Positions 2,101 through 6,191 of a stretch of 64,000 nucleotides of DNA are shown one piece after another (within the stretch, counting starts at the first letter, position 1; every line of letters starts with the position of its first letter). The stretch is from assembly GCF_000026105.1 (NCBI RefSeq), contig NC_008027.1, forward strand, positions 5,538,501 through 5,602,500, read 5' to 3'. The DNA comes from Pseudomonas entomophila L48. Lineage in GTDB: Bacteria > Pseudomonadota > Gammaproteobacteria > Pseudomonadales > Pseudomonadaceae. The translations under genes were made by a program, and so were the position numbers. The notes under the pieces were generated by a model. The model did no database searches. It saw nothing but the letters and a program-made list of their open reading frames with translations, and was not told the origin of the DNA.

Positions 2101-2176
<76 letters not shown>

Positions 2177-2306: not shown

Positions 2307-2630
2307 ATGGCACTTCAATTCCACGAAAGCCCCTTCCACGTTACCCACGATGCGGAAACGGCCAGCAAGATGGCTTTGAAGATGGACCTTTCCATCTTCA
2401 TCACCGACTGCATCAAGAAAATGGGCCTCAAGCAACACGAGGCCGCAGCCAGGCTGAACGTCACCCAGTCCCGGGTATCCGAGCTGGCCAATGGCAAGAT
2501 CGAGAAATTCACGCTGGATGCCATGCTGGACATGCTCGATAAGCTCGGCTTTCGCACCCGCCTTGTACTGGCCTCGAACGATACTGATGCCCTTCCCCAG
2601 ATTGTGATCTCGCAAGCGCCCGGCAGCTAA
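2307..2630 (+). CDS. XRE-family antitoxin (HigA / HTH_37-like)
   Basis: The 107-residue protein has an XRE-type HTH at about residues 45-68 (KQHEAAARLNVTQSRVSELA) followed by 'FTLDAMLDMLDKLGFRTRLVL'. This is the usual ending of antitoxins paired with HigB/Gp49-type RelE-fold toxins. The matching toxin is present but on the opposite strand, tail to tail, with the two stop codons interlocked (CTAA at 2627-2630). Normally such pairs are co-directional, so the antitoxin here cannot repress the toxin through a shared promoter. It lies inside the tRNA-Thr island. Confidence 0.8.
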   Translation: MALQFHESPFHVTHDAETASKMALKMDLSIFITDCIKKMGLKQHEAAARLNVTQSRVSELANGKIEKFTLDAMLDMLDKLGFRTRLVLASNDTDALPQIVISQAPGS

Positions 2631-2977
2631 ACCCTGTACCCCATCTTTCTGAGCTCCAGCTTCAGCTCCTTCAATCGATCCTCAGCGACCTGCATCGCAT
2701 GCCGGTCCGACCTGTTGGTGGTTTTCACGAACGAATGCAGCACAACCACCATGTCTGCATATTTGGCTACGTACACACATCTGAAAGCCGGGCTGCCGTT
2801 GATGATGAGCTCGATTGCCCCCGCCCCCACCGAATCAGTCAGTGACTTGATAGGCCGTACAGGGTCCTGCCCGTACTGAATGCGCCGCAGGTCCTTACCG
2901 AAATCATCCTGGACATCCTGTGGCAGGTCCTTGTACTCACGCTCGGCGGCAGTACTGACAAACGCGAACTTTCTCAA
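2627..2977 (-). CDS. RelE/HigB-like toxin (phage Gp49 type)
   Basis: The 116-residue protein follows the Gp49/HigB pattern: 'LPQDVQDDFGKDLRRIQYGQDP', 'GAIELIINGSPAFRCVYVAKY', 'VVVLHSFVKTTNRSDRHAMQVAEDRLKEL'. Family members are ribosome-dependent mRNA endonucleases, neutralised by an XRE antitoxin. Length is normal for the family. The only plausible start is TTG (2975-2977), exactly at the junction with the vgrG remnant, so the original promoter and start may have been lost. It overlaps the convergent antitoxin gene by 4 bases. Confidence 0.75.
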   Translation of the reverse strand: MRKFAFVSTAAEREYKDLPQDVQDDFGKDLRRIQYGQDPVRPIKSLTDSVGAGAIELIINGSPAFRCVYVAKYADMVVVLHSFVKTTNRSDRHAMQVAEDRLKELKLELRKMGYRV

Positions 2978-2982
2978 ATTGG

Positions 2983-3615
2983 TTGAGCCTGCCCCGGGTA
3001 CCGAAAGGCGACCAGGTCTGGCAGCACAGCGAGGCCTGCCAGCAGCGCGTCGACGCGGAAGGCAACTGGCTGCGCCAGACGGACGGGAAGATCCAGGACA
3101 AGGCGATCGAGCGCGAGGTGGAGTCGCTGGCCAACCGCGAGCAGTTCCAGAGCCACACCAGGAACGTGGACGAACATTCCACCGAGACGGTGGGCGGGGT
3201 GAAGAAGGTCGAAGCCCTGGGCGCGCTGAAGCTGCTGTCCGGCGGATCCGCGAGCCTGGCCGCTGTGGATGACCTGCACTAGGCCACCGGGCGCGACCTC
3301 AACCTGGTGGTGGGGCAGAAGCTCAACGCGACGATTGGCGGTGATGTTCAAGAGCAGATCCTGGGCCTGCGCCGCAGCGTCTCCAACGTCAGTCAGCGAC
3401 TGCAGGCTCCCAAAACCTGGCTGGGGTCGGAAGAGGTCAATGTACTGCAGGTGTTGTGCGATCTGCTCCATCTCGTTGAGCAGATGAACGTACAACTAGC
3501 TGGCCATGTACATGGTGCAAGCCCTACACCTCACAATGCCCAAGCGAACAGTCTGCACGCTGTTCGCGCGAGCAATTTTGCCTCAGTTCTTCAAGGTGTT
3601 ACTGCTCAACCCTAA
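2983..3615 (+). pseudogene. vgrG 3' remnant with internal stop
   Basis: One frame runs through the whole stretch, broken by a TAG at 3280-3282. The upstream part has 'NVDEHSTETVGGVKKVEALG'. The downstream part has 'GRDLNLVVGQKLNATIGGDV' and 'APKTWLGSEEVNVLQVLCDL', then 'LVEQMNVQLAGHVHG'. These are hallmarks of the C-terminal beta-helix and tail of type VI secretion VgrG proteins. No N-terminal gp27/gp5 part is present, so this is a truncated, inactivated relic. It is unrelated in its end sequence to the intact vgrG at 52.5 kb. Confidence 0.75.
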
Positions 3616-3619
3616 TGAC

Positions 3620-4639
3620 TTACACACCCTCAATTCGTTTAAAAATCGCTGAAAACACTCTTTCCCGCTCGGCTCGCTTGGATTTGTCCGAGGTTGATCT
3701 TGATGAAACCTCAGAGAAAATCACCACATCCTCATCACCAGACGAAAAGTCGTTTTGCTTGGCGGAAACAACGAGCTTTGTAAGCTCTTCTTTTAGTTGC
3801 TGCGCGTTGCTGAAATGGCTAAGCCCAGTACTTCGCGTATATTCTAGACAAACTCCAAATAGAGAATGGAAAACCCCTTTTGACTTGAAGTACTGAAGAT
3901 TATCTTTATCCAGTATGTTTTTTATTAAGGAAATACTGCTATTGAACTCACTTTCGCAATCTGACTCCGTAGGGAATTCCTCGTCAAATTCGATATAAGC
4001 AGTTTCCAGCAGGTCTTTTTTATTTGTTATTCCGTACACCTGACGGAGCAGTAGCTCACTGACATATTCAATGTCTAGCATTCTCCTTACGTCGCGAGGT
4101 GTAAAAAGCCCGATACTTTGAAAATAGGGGTTGTCGGCAAGCCTTTCTGAGAGCTGCTTGAAAAGCCCTTTGTATCGCGCATTCCTAAGCTCCTGATCGT
4201 TAAGAACTATATTGTTAGTATTCAGCCTAGTGAATGTGTTACGTATTTCTTCATCATTCGTTTTGCGAAGAAATCTAACTACAACCTTATAATCCCAGAA
4301 CTCTTCTTTTTGAGTTGTCGACAGATCCCTAAAATACTCATTCGACCAGTTGTCGTTGTTTGGCAATCCAAATTCATTATCAATGAATTTAATGATCGAA
4401 GTAATCCGCTGTTGACCATCAACAACTATATGCTGCTGTTTTCCGGACTCTGGATCGGTCGTAATCTGCATGTATATCTCTGGAAAAGGCAGGTCCCCTA
4501 GGATGGTATCCATAAGGAACGACCTTTCTTTTTCCATCCATACTGCACGCCTCTGGAATTTTGGACTGATTTGCAAACTGCCGTCATTCCTTAGGCTGTT
4601 GAACCAAGCTACAGTCTGAAGACTAACATCGTAATCCAT
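3620..4639 (-). CDS. DUF262 domain protein
   Basis: The 339-residue protein starts at an ATG behind a GGGGGA ribosome binding site, 8 bases after the upstream gene's stop. The DUF262 signature DGQQR lies at residues 74-78, followed by the second family motif 'FTRLNTNNIVLNDQELRNA' around residues 135-153. DUF262 is a ParB/Srx-like nucleotide-binding fold found in GmrSD-type and other anti-phage nucleases. Here the usual HNH nuclease (DUF1524) domain is absent; the C-terminal 150 residues are charged and helical with no motif I know. It is the second gene of a two-gene AT-rich operon, probably a defence or toxin-antitoxin type module; this is inference. Confidence 0.8.
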   Translation of the reverse strand: MDYDVSLQTVAWFNSLRNDGSLQISPKFQRRAVWMEKERSFLMDTILGDLPFPEIYMQITTDPESGKQQHIVVDGQQRITSIIKFIDNEFGLPNNDNWSNEYFRDLSTTQKEEFWDYKVVVRFLRKTNDEEIRNTFTRLNTNNIVLNDQELRNARYKGLFKQLSERLADNPYFQSIGLFTPRDVRRMLDIEYVSELLLRQVYGITNKKDLLETAYIEFDEEFPTESDCESEFNSSISLIKNILDKDNLQYFKSKGVFHSLFGVCLEYTRSTGLSHFSNAQQLKEELTKLVVSAKQNDFSSGDEDVVIFSEVSSRSTSDKSKRAERERVFSAIFKRIEGV

Positions 4640-4647
4640 AATTCCCC

Positions 4648-5214
4648 CTATTTATTGGCTAGACGTATGCTACGCACATAGTAGTCGATCGTTTCTGCCA
4701 CATTCCTAAAATACATCATATTGACCTGCTTGTAGCTCACCGCCTTATTGGAGTATTTATCGGTGAGCTTTAAGTGATCGCGTTTTAATTCTGATGTAAG
4801 GGCTGGCACCCACTTGGGGGTTGCGAAGCCTGAGTATACGTTTTCCCCATTGCGCCTTAATGCTGCCTGTGCGGAATGGCCAAGTGAATAGTATTTATCG
4901 CGATGAAAGCGCCTAAGTTCTTCCCAGGTTTTTAGATAGCTATCCGCACAAATTATAGCTATATCTATATCCGATCCCTCATGGAAAACCCTAAAATTCT
5001 TATCCGGATTCAGGCTGAATTTCCAGTTAGCTGATCCAACAATGGAAACTAGGTGGGCATGGGGATGATCTGCTTTTATTGGAGCTTTATAGTCTTCGTA
5101 AGCTTTCTGGGAGTCAAAAGCATGAATTGAGCTTTTATGTATAAGCTCTTCAGCAACGGCGGAGTATGGTTTTGATTTCAGGAAATCTTTGAATTCTGCC
5201 AACTCCATTTGCAC
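4648..5214 (-). CDS. nucleotidyltransferase-fold protein
   Basis: The 188-residue protein may start at the GTG (5212-5214) or at the ATG two codons later. An AAGGAG ribosome binding site precedes both. Residues 57-87 contain a nucleotidyltransferase-like signature: 'SIVGSANW' followed, after an unusually long gap of about 20 residues, by 'GSDIDIAII', which supplies the D-x-D metal ligands. The rest has no obvious partner domain. It is the first gene of an operon with the DUF262 gene. Both have low GC relative to the chromosome, consistent with recent acquisition. Possible roles are NMP/AMP transfer to a target protein or tRNA, or nucleotide second messenger synthesis; none can be proven here. 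Confidence 0.65.
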   Translation of the reverse strand: MQMELAEFKDFLKSKPYSAVAEELIHKSSIHAFDSQKAYEDYKAPIKADHPHAHLVSIVGSANWKFSLNPDKNFRVFHEGSDIDIAIICADSYLKTWEELRRFHRDKYYSLGHSAQAALRRNGENVYSGFATPKWVPALTSELKRDHLKLTDKYSNKAVSYKQVNMMYFRNVAETIDYYVRSIRLANK

Positions 5215-5771
5215 AAATCTCCTTCTGCCAAATCCTAAAACTGTTGTTTTGATAACATCTGAAGATATGCTGCGCGCGTCAAGACAACGGGGAGATAGCT
5301 GCTCTTACTGACGAACGCTCCGGCTTCGCGTAAGCCTGATTCTGCCCGAAGATGGCAGACTCGAGCTCTTGAGAGGAAATCTTACCTTACGGAAAAAAAT
5401 CTGGCTGAAAAATCACTTATCCCCCTCCCGCCGACGCGCTCCGCCTCGGAAAAAATGCAAAGGGGCTGGGCTTTGCTACGGCCGGCCACGGCAGGCGCGG
5501 CGCGGGCCACGGGGGGCCAAGAGGCATTGCACACTGTGCAAAGGAGTGAAGGGCTGTGCAGCGCTGAGCTACTGAGAGTGTCCACAGCGCTCCCGGATAC
5601 CGGCCCCAAATATCCGTGAATAACCAACAAAATCAGCTGATAGCCGGCTTTTATCAATGAACGCTGGGCGATAGAGTGGACTTGTAATCAGTAGGTCCCG
5701 GGGGTCGACTCCTACTGCGGCACCATATTCAAAGCCTTGCTACGCGGGGCTTCTTGTTTCTGGCTTCCAAC
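5215..5771. other. intergenic region with island right end
   Basis: No gene is visible in this gap. It holds the promoter region of the leftward nucleotidyltransferase/DUF262 operon (around 5215-5290), a perfect palindrome TTGCACA-C-TGTGCAA at 5527-5541, and the degenerate tRNA-Thr 3' copy at 5679-5727 that marks the end of the island. Confidence 0.6.
5679..5727 (+). repeat. attR-like partial duplicate of tRNA-Thr 3' half
   Basis: Bases 5679-5702 are identical over 24 bases to the anticodon-arm/variable-loop part of the tRNA-Thr gene (2130-2153). The following bases keep a degraded T arm and end in GGCACCATA like the true tRNA 3' end. No 5' half is present. Such partial tRNA copies are left by integrase-driven insertion into tRNA genes, so the segment 2177-5727 is an island. 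No integrase gene remains. Confidence 0.8.
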
Positions 5772-5987
5772 TCACCCCTCCATCAACGCCTTCTGCAACT
5801 TCCTCACCTCAACCCCACTCAGCTCAAGCGCCACATTCCCCCCCTCCTTCCCCATCCCCCTGATCAACACAATCCCACCCTTGTTGAAATTGCGCTCCTG
5901 AGCCAGCGGATACATCGCAATGATGTGATCGACACTGACCACGTAATGCCGATGGTTGGTGATCTCGAAACTGACGAATCGGCTCAC
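5772..5987 (-). CDS. conserved small protein, function unknown
   Basis: I choose the GTG start at 5985-5987 because an AAGGAG ribosome binding site lies 8 bases upstream and the reading VSRFVSFEITNHRHYVVSVDHIIAMYP looks like a natural N-terminus; longer readings start in non-coding-like sequence. The 71-residue product is a mixed alpha/beta soluble protein ending 'VRKLQKALMEG'. I recognise no family. It lies between the tRNA-Thr island and nirK, on the opposite strand to nirK. Confidence 0.55.
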   Translation of the reverse strand: MSRFVSFEITNHRHYVVSVDHIIAMYPLAQERNFNKGGIVLIRGMGKEGGNVALELSGVEVRKLQKALMEG

Positions 5988-6111
5988 TCCGTGTGCTCCT
6001 TGCAGTGCTGACCAGCGCGCCCCGGTTGCAACCCACGCCATCCAGAGGCGCCCCACAAGCCATAGTAGCCTTCCGCCAGACCTGCGACAGGTTGTCAGCC
6101 CTTTCCACTTC

Positions 6112-6125
6112 TTGTTTTCGCTCAA
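6112..6125 (+). promoter_or_regulatory. possible ANR/DNR (FNR-type) box upstream of nirK
   Basis: TTGTT-TTCG-CTCAA matches the FNR-family consensus TTGAT-N4-ATCAA at 8 of 10 defined positions. It lies 67 bases before the nirK start, a normal place for activation by the oxygen or NO sensors ANR/DNR. This is a pattern match only. Confidence 0.4.
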
Positions 6126-6191
6126 TAAACCTTATGTTTAAAAGGGGTAATCCTGTGTCCGACGGCTTTCGTCGACTTAAGGAGAAGTCCC

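Follow-up and report, generated by a model that had tools for sequence, protein, structure and literature searches.

The window analysed here is a stretch of 64,000 nucleotides (nt) from Pseudomonas entomophila L48 (NC_008027.1, positions 5,538,501 to 5,602,500 of the forward strand). Its minus strand carries a two-gene operon in which a nucleotidyltransferase (NTase)-like gene is followed by a gene for a stand-alone DUF262 protein. The two genes and their expression signals, in window positions, are as follows:

4648-5214, minus strand: NTase-like gene, first gene of the operon, 188 amino acids (aa) from GTG 5214
4648-5208, minus strand: the same gene from the alternative start ATG 5208, two codons in-frame inside the GTG start, 186 aa; the likely start
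3620-4639, minus strand: stand-alone DUF262 gene (ParB/Srx plus helical domain), 339 aa
5219-5224, minus strand: AAGGAG, a ribosome-binding-site-like sequence 4 nt before GTG 5214 of the NTase gene
4644-4649, minus strand: AGGGGG, a ribosome-binding-site-like sequence for the DUF262 gene, overlapping the NTase stop codon (4648-4650)

A first-pass annotation of this DNA had described two co-directional open reading frames (ORFs) 8 bases apart at 3620-5214, and both were found there, with the DUF262 gene downstream. ATG 5208 is the start in most homologue rows of a 31-row NTase alignment. The pair had also been called AT-rich, which agrees with its GC content of 0.419 versus 0.634 across 5703-64000 of the window.

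To describe the spread of the pair, loci are given L-numbers and genomes G-numbers. Among 29 distinct loci found with NTase queries (window and duplicates excluded; NTases of NTase-DUF262 pairs were themselves the main source of A3, the second query alignment), a DUF262 gene lay directly downstream on the same strand in 25. The gene order in the window is therefore not due to chance, and the co-occurrence of the two families, proposed in the first-pass annotation as a check, was observed. In one of the 25 loci, L048 (7917-9571), the NTase is broken into two ORFs, next to an intact DUF262 ORF. The four exceptions were L010, which holds an 86-aa NTase fragment, and the remote NTases of L028, L029, and L030. 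When loci found through DUF262 or through the pair and the window itself were included, the pairing was seen in 33/37 loci (42 rows before copy removal), with gaps between the two genes of -104 to +12 nt, where the large overlaps rest on mechanically chosen start codons. In the reverse direction, a DUF262 scan of viral contigs, an NTase gene was upstream in 7/14 distinct loci (18 before copy removal). Because of this difference (25/29 versus 7/14), the NTase implies DUF262 far more than the reverse, and the association is near-obligate from the NTase side. The pairwise distances of the two proteins were correlated (r = 0.92, with 0/10,000 permutations as high; shared species history is uncorrected in this value).

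The remote NTases, members of the same superfamily with E-values of about 1e-11 to 1e-20 in the genome searches, come from Pseudomonas genomes G069, G200, and G291 (L028 8283-9029, L029 7986-8705, and L030 8074-8730). The NTases of L028 and L030 are directly preceded by a PF00912 transglycosylase gene, and the neighbor in L029 looked alike by eye. This small stand-alone peptidoglycan transglycosylase gene is a second, unrelated partner of these NTases.

The pair was found in Pseudomonadota, in a Myxococcota bin (L008), and in Bacillota (L009), as well as on a 6.2-kb Cronobacter plasmid and a Pseudoalteromonas plasmid. It is rare. In Escherichia coli it was present in 3/5,426 genomes (blastn over 69% of the query), lying inside a prophage in the two loci inspected, L049 and L050, and the L019 pair used as query gave no match in this species. 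Within the genus, 5/398 genomes matched the NTase profile: two closely (the own genome and one other) and three through the transglycosylase-linked NTases. Within the class, 2/369 genomes matched, and a wider NTase profile matched 6/298 genomes in the genus and 3/349 in the phylum; all of these counts include the own genome. The window's NTase had no tblastn match among plasmid and phage records, where a remote NTase query matched one plasmid and no phage.

The NTase carries GS at residues 60-61 and SDID at residues 81-84, which gives the motif GSX20DXD. In MntA the corresponding motif is GSX10DXD, with D71 as third Mg ligand (PMC7641770). The gap between GS and DxD is thus unusually long, as first annotated, and the long gap is conserved among relatives, with a spacing from GS to SDxD of 16-25 residues in 33/38 rows where the pattern was caught. 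The motif residues are conserved as well: across 32 pairs (L048 excluded), the G of GS and the SD.D residues, including both D, were present in 32/32 and the S of GS in 31/32. No conserved acidic column matched MntA D71, the candidate strand position being N/T/R/S/K/A. Catalytic activity of the NTase is therefore likely given the strictly conserved GS and DxD, but it is not certain because a conserved third metal-binding acid is missing. Pfam gave nothing above threshold for this protein (Polbeta, E 0.071), PADLOC models gave no match at E up to 1, and the PHROGs match was to a family of unknown function (phrog_32008, 6.8e-9). The structure model was confident (pLDDT 95). Its best structural matches were MntA/MNT antitoxins, although these were weak, and Foldseek against PDB and BFVD returned nothing with E below 1e-3. 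A PDB sequence search with each protein and each profile of the pair likewise gave no credible match. Nucleotide transfer is what this motif and predicted fold would imply.

The DUF262 protein matched PF03235 at 5.3e-22, and nothing else in the 5.89-Mb genome matched this model. The DGQQR motif reported at first is present at residues 74-78. The absence of the HNH domain of GmrSD-type enzymes also held, as no HNH/DUF1524 Pfam model matched and the structure model aligned to residues 1-421 of the 580-residue BrxU chain, ending before the nuclease domain. The structural likeness to BrxU and SspE stops short of their nuclease domain in both cases. Of the NTase and ParB/Srx-like folds proposed earlier, the latter is consistent with this likeness, and the former rests on a confident model with the weak MntA match described above. 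Residues Q29, R30, W34, DGQQR 74-78, Y117, F136, N140, L146, E150, R186, R322, and R325 were conserved in 32/32 pairs. In PHROGs, the protein matched phrog_2598 (3.5e-33), a family of unknown function.

Relatives of this DUF262 protein were found beside other partners. In L035, L054, and L055, the ORF downstream of DUF262 has a HEPN-type Rx4-6H motif (RNACAH, RFRNFIAH, and RNAVAH, respectively); the HEPN label rests on this motif, since Pfam found no domain in these ORFs. In L036, the partner is an annotated protein kinase. The L036 genes (3998-6140) are on an Asticcacaulis excentricus plasmid, where DUF262 overlaps the kinase gene and where a Tn3-family transposase and a recombinase are neighbors. 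When 40 DUF262 proteins were placed in a maximum-likelihood tree built from their first 330 residues, those with HEPN-motif partners formed one clade (97/89). This clade and L036 fell among NTase-coupled lineages, so that NTase coupling needs three changes on the tree; a single origin of the coupling would still be compatible with these sequences, and several branches are long. The core DUF262 residues were alike whatever the partner, except for Q76K in L034.

The simplest reading of these observations is a sensor with an exchangeable effector, because the nuclease is gone and a constant DUF262 is joined to an NTase here and to a HEPN-motif protein or a kinase in its relatives. We tentatively favor this reading, in which DUF262 is the sensor and the NTase the effector of a two-gene antiviral module, at somewhat below an even chance. 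The module would be borne by phages, plasmids, and islands. DUF262 would be a BrxU/GmrS-like ParB/Srx NTPase without nuclease that serves as sensor and switch, binding nucleoside triphosphate (NTP) and probably recognizing DNA that is invading or carries the wrong modification. When activated, it would license the minimal nucleotidyltransferase of the same operon to attach nucleoside monophosphate to a protein or RNA target, of either host or phage, and so stop infection. What was observed is the conserved pairing and gene order, the conserved active-site motifs, the predicted folds, the lack of a detectable nuclease domain, the mobile settings, and the other partners of DUF262 relatives; phage defense, NTP and DNA sensing, NTase activity, its target, and the direction of control are inferred. 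A broader version, in which stand-alone DUF262 is a common sensor chassis whose effector slot is swapped (NTase, HEPN RNase, kinase, or OLD nuclease) and whose NTase form executes immunity by nucleotidylation, is more doubtful.

As the main alternative, the pair could follow the logic of type VII toxin-antitoxin (TA) systems of the MNT-HEPN type. DUF262 would then be harmful, for example by nicking DNA or depleting NTP, with the NTase as an antitoxin that nucleotidylates or caps it until it is set free upon infection. The MntA/MNT antitoxins among the structural matches agree with this, the NTase gene precedes its partner, an order that is almost invariable for MNT genes (PMC3710099), and DNA nicking under negative control by ATP has been reported for ParB/Srx proteins (PMC12839542). 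However, the acceptor in HepT is a conserved Tyr (PMC7641770), whereas no Y/S/T/K/H/D/E/R residue was kept in at least 30/33 NTase-coupled DUF262 proteins and absent from all five others compared, which are HEPN-, kinase-, or otherwise coupled. Position 308 is Y in 31/33 NTase-coupled proteins, but it is F in the window's own DUF262. Furthermore, in L048 the DUF262 ORF is intact although the NTase is split, which bears on whether a cell tolerates DUF262 alone; this is one locus, and a sequencing error may explain it. We regard an antitoxin role of the NTase as unlikely. The same observations (no NTase-specific acceptor residue, 33 versus 5; relatives that work with quite different partners; L048) leave unsupported the part of the first-pass annotation in which one protein governs its partner by nucleotide transfer. 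The anti-phage role that it proposed does fit the genomic contexts, as does a mobile-element role.

DNA-modification genes were found next to some of the pairs. A C5-cytosine methyltransferase gene lies directly upstream of the pair in L020, L056, and L074 (10-nt overlap and 15- and 30-nt gaps; PF00145 at 1.1e-53, 7.1e-53, and 8.8e-47, respectively), and the DUF262 proteins of these three loci are on separate tree branches. In L056, the pair is followed by an SRA-HNH gene (PF01844, 6.8e-10; PF02182, 4.6e-5, below the cut-off). L056 (2793-7397) thus contains four co-directional genes in the order C5 methyltransferase, NTase, long DUF262 (502 aa), and SRA-HNH, and this locus may be a modification-dependent restriction system whose components are all in one place. 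A Vsr gene (2.9e-28) adjoins the methyltransferase in L074, a NOV_C gene is upstream of the pair in L076, and Eco57I-type and ResIII genes are nearby in L003. In L047 (8624-10366), on a prophage-like contig, a KAP-family P-loop NTPase gene (PF07693, 5.3e-43) is downstream of the pair.

These contexts raise a restriction-type explanation, in which an NTase-DUF262 complex reads DNA methylation and itself attacks the DNA, ParB/Srx is the nuclease, and the NTase supplies or reads nucleotides. Three operons on separate branches begin with a C5 methyltransferase, one of them continuing into the SRA-HNH gene, and the relatives BrxU and SspE act on modified DNA (PMC10952713). Yet no nuclease domain was found in DUF262, and C5 methyltransferases (PF00145) made up only 3 of the 149 neighbor genes scanned (of 158) from 32 pair loci, some with little flanking DNA. 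We consider this explanation decidedly improbable. Integrases (PF00589) accounted for six of the neighbor genes. With PADLOC, 100 models matched the 149 neighbors at 1e-8, and each of the 25 models listed had three members, all methyltransferases; the control, 46 window genes from 9353 on, gave four matching models with one gene each. One of these control genes is an RtcR-type regulator (PADLOC RtcR, CARF-AAA-HTH, 1e-75). The neighbor tally is rough, and we claim no statistical enrichment near defense genes because the control consists of 46 genes of one genome and because the virus collection among the sequences searched over-represents phage settings.

Several copies of the pair are in mobile elements. 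The pair adjoins an integrase gene in L044 and, by eye, in L018, and lies near one in L017. By eye, it adjoins a repressor-like gene in L019, and in L015 it is flanked by a replication-like gene on one side and the portal gene of a P2-like phage on the other, presumably the tin/old cargo place of such phages. In the window, the pair is part of an island with the following features:

2101-2176, plus strand: tRNA-Thr (TGT), left island boundary (ARAGORN)
5679-5725, plus strand: partial copy of the tRNA-Thr 3' end, att-like right boundary, 24 nt exact and then imperfect
2307-2630, plus strand: HTH_37 antitoxin-like gene inside the island, not counted in the module (PF13744, 1.7e-19)
2627-2977, minus strand: Gp49/RelE-like gene inside the island, not counted in the module (PF05973, 2.8e-16)
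2983-3615, plus strand: remnant of a phage baseplate gene, corresponding to its C-terminal part and containing an in-frame stop; it lies tail-to-tail with the DUF262 gene (ORF comparison)

The surroundings had been described as a tRNA island. This has to be amended, since tRNA-Thr is the sole tRNA that ARAGORN found in the whole window, but its partial 3'-end copy does form the other boundary. The 24-nt exact repeat compares with a maximum of 12 nt in 200 single-base shuffles. Similarly, the HTH_37 and Gp49-like genes annotated as a TA pair are present, but they are convergent with a 4-nt overlap (2307-2977), which is odd for a TA operon. The baseplate remnant shares 68-77% identity with the C-terminal part of ORFs in L002 (a Pseudomonas viridiflava locus) and in the viral contigs L011 and L012, where these ORFs are longer, uninterrupted, and each tail-to-tail with an NTase-DUF262 pair. 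The L002 relative is a phage baseplate protein (phrog_4011, 1.8e-136; PF04717, 5.3e-5), and in L002, too, a tRNA-Thr (TGT) precedes the pair, at a distance of about 3.3 kb. Because the remnant adjoins the pair and its longer relatives do so in three other loci, the pair in the window appears to be cargo of a tailed prophage of which only an island at tRNA-Thr is left. A right-flank scan of 29 genomes, of which six matched, revealed no empty site; long matches occurred only in G013 besides the own genome (75-76% over about 980 bases). On another Pseudomonas contig (G008:C5:35079-79790), two partial tRNA-Thr 3'-end copies are accompanied by a longer match, and these copies suggest that tRNA-Thr is a repeated insertion site.

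The location of several copies in prophages, beside integrase, repressor-like, or structural genes, could also mean that the pair serves the phage or prophage itself, in superinfection exclusion, lysogeny control, or counter-defense. However, the pair is also carried by plasmids (L032 and L033) and occurs on bacterial contigs that by eye have no phage genes nearby (such as L006 and L007), and superinfection exclusion by cargo genes is itself phage defense. We judge such a purely phage-serving function very unlikely, and the pair is probably an unnamed anti-phage module, found again in distant bacteria and frequently on mobile DNA.

DUF262 proteins without a nuclease are known from defense systems, their mode of action being open (PMC10952713), and the two small genes described here make it directly testable. 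The deep pairing with the NTase, taken with the versions that have a HEPN-motif protein or a kinase, suggests a single sensor connected to various effectors. If the NTase is indeed the effector, nucleotidylation would become a phage-stopping means of the DUF262 family, whereas as a regulator it would extend MNT-type control beyond HEPN toxins. If the nucleotidylation form is true, the loci headed by C5 methyltransferases would be restriction-modification systems without nuclease, in which a target is modified instead of nucleic acid being cut.

The first-pass annotation knew no described system with exactly this pair, and our comparisons agree: the NTase had no PADLOC match, and the partners differ in the two systems whose DUF262 models were the closest. 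None of the three outcomes that the annotation had named as refuting (families that do not co-occur, unconserved NTase residues, a match to a named system) was observed, the last among the systems that could be searched. The first is Menshen, of which we take NsnA to be a component. The DUF262 protein matched the PADLOC NsnA model (PDLC03877) at 4.5e-39 over residues 18-336, but the partner NTase and two scanned island neighbors matched no Nsn model (NsnC was not searched separately), and the genome's matches to the NsnB model are at other places, at a distance of about 64 kb or more. The NTase was also rejected as an NsnB, since the NsnB model has 345 positions and matches all 14 control genomes, whereas the NTase is rare. 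The second is PD-T4-2, a proven defense system of DUF262 and HEPN (PMC9519451, PMC10952713). It likewise has a stand-alone DUF262 with one partner, and its PD-T4-2_A model matched at 2.4e-22; the partner there is HEPN, whereas here it is an NTase placed upstream of DUF262. The literature available on DUF262/GmrSD, nucleotidyltransferases, and defense yielded no description of an NTase-DUF262 pair; a newer name is possible because the PADLOC-DB version is of 2023 and literature coverage was limited.

Other known systems differ as well. GmrSD, BrxU, and SspE share the ParB/Srx DUF262 domain with (I/V)DGQQR, but they have their own DUF1524/HNH nuclease, whereas the pair has no detectable one and adds an NTase gene. 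In BrxU and SspE, the DUF262 domain binds and hydrolyzes NTPs and links the recognition of modified DNA to the nuclease (PMC10952713). PFLU4242 of Pseudomonas fluorescens was rejected as a relative, as it has DUF1524 and is hence GmrSD-like (PMC8544851). In type VII HepT-MntA, GSX10DXD is combined with a HEPN partner with RX4HXY; here, GSX20DXD without a conserved third acid is combined with DUF262, and the NTase has extra N-terminal helices. TgvAB and GrwAB of Vibrio cholerae are likewise two-protein DUF262 defense systems, but both of their proteins have DUF262 and one has DUF1524, and the available text of PMC12409362 does not mention an NTase. Taken together, the pair constitutes a DUF262-centered two-gene system with a new partner class.
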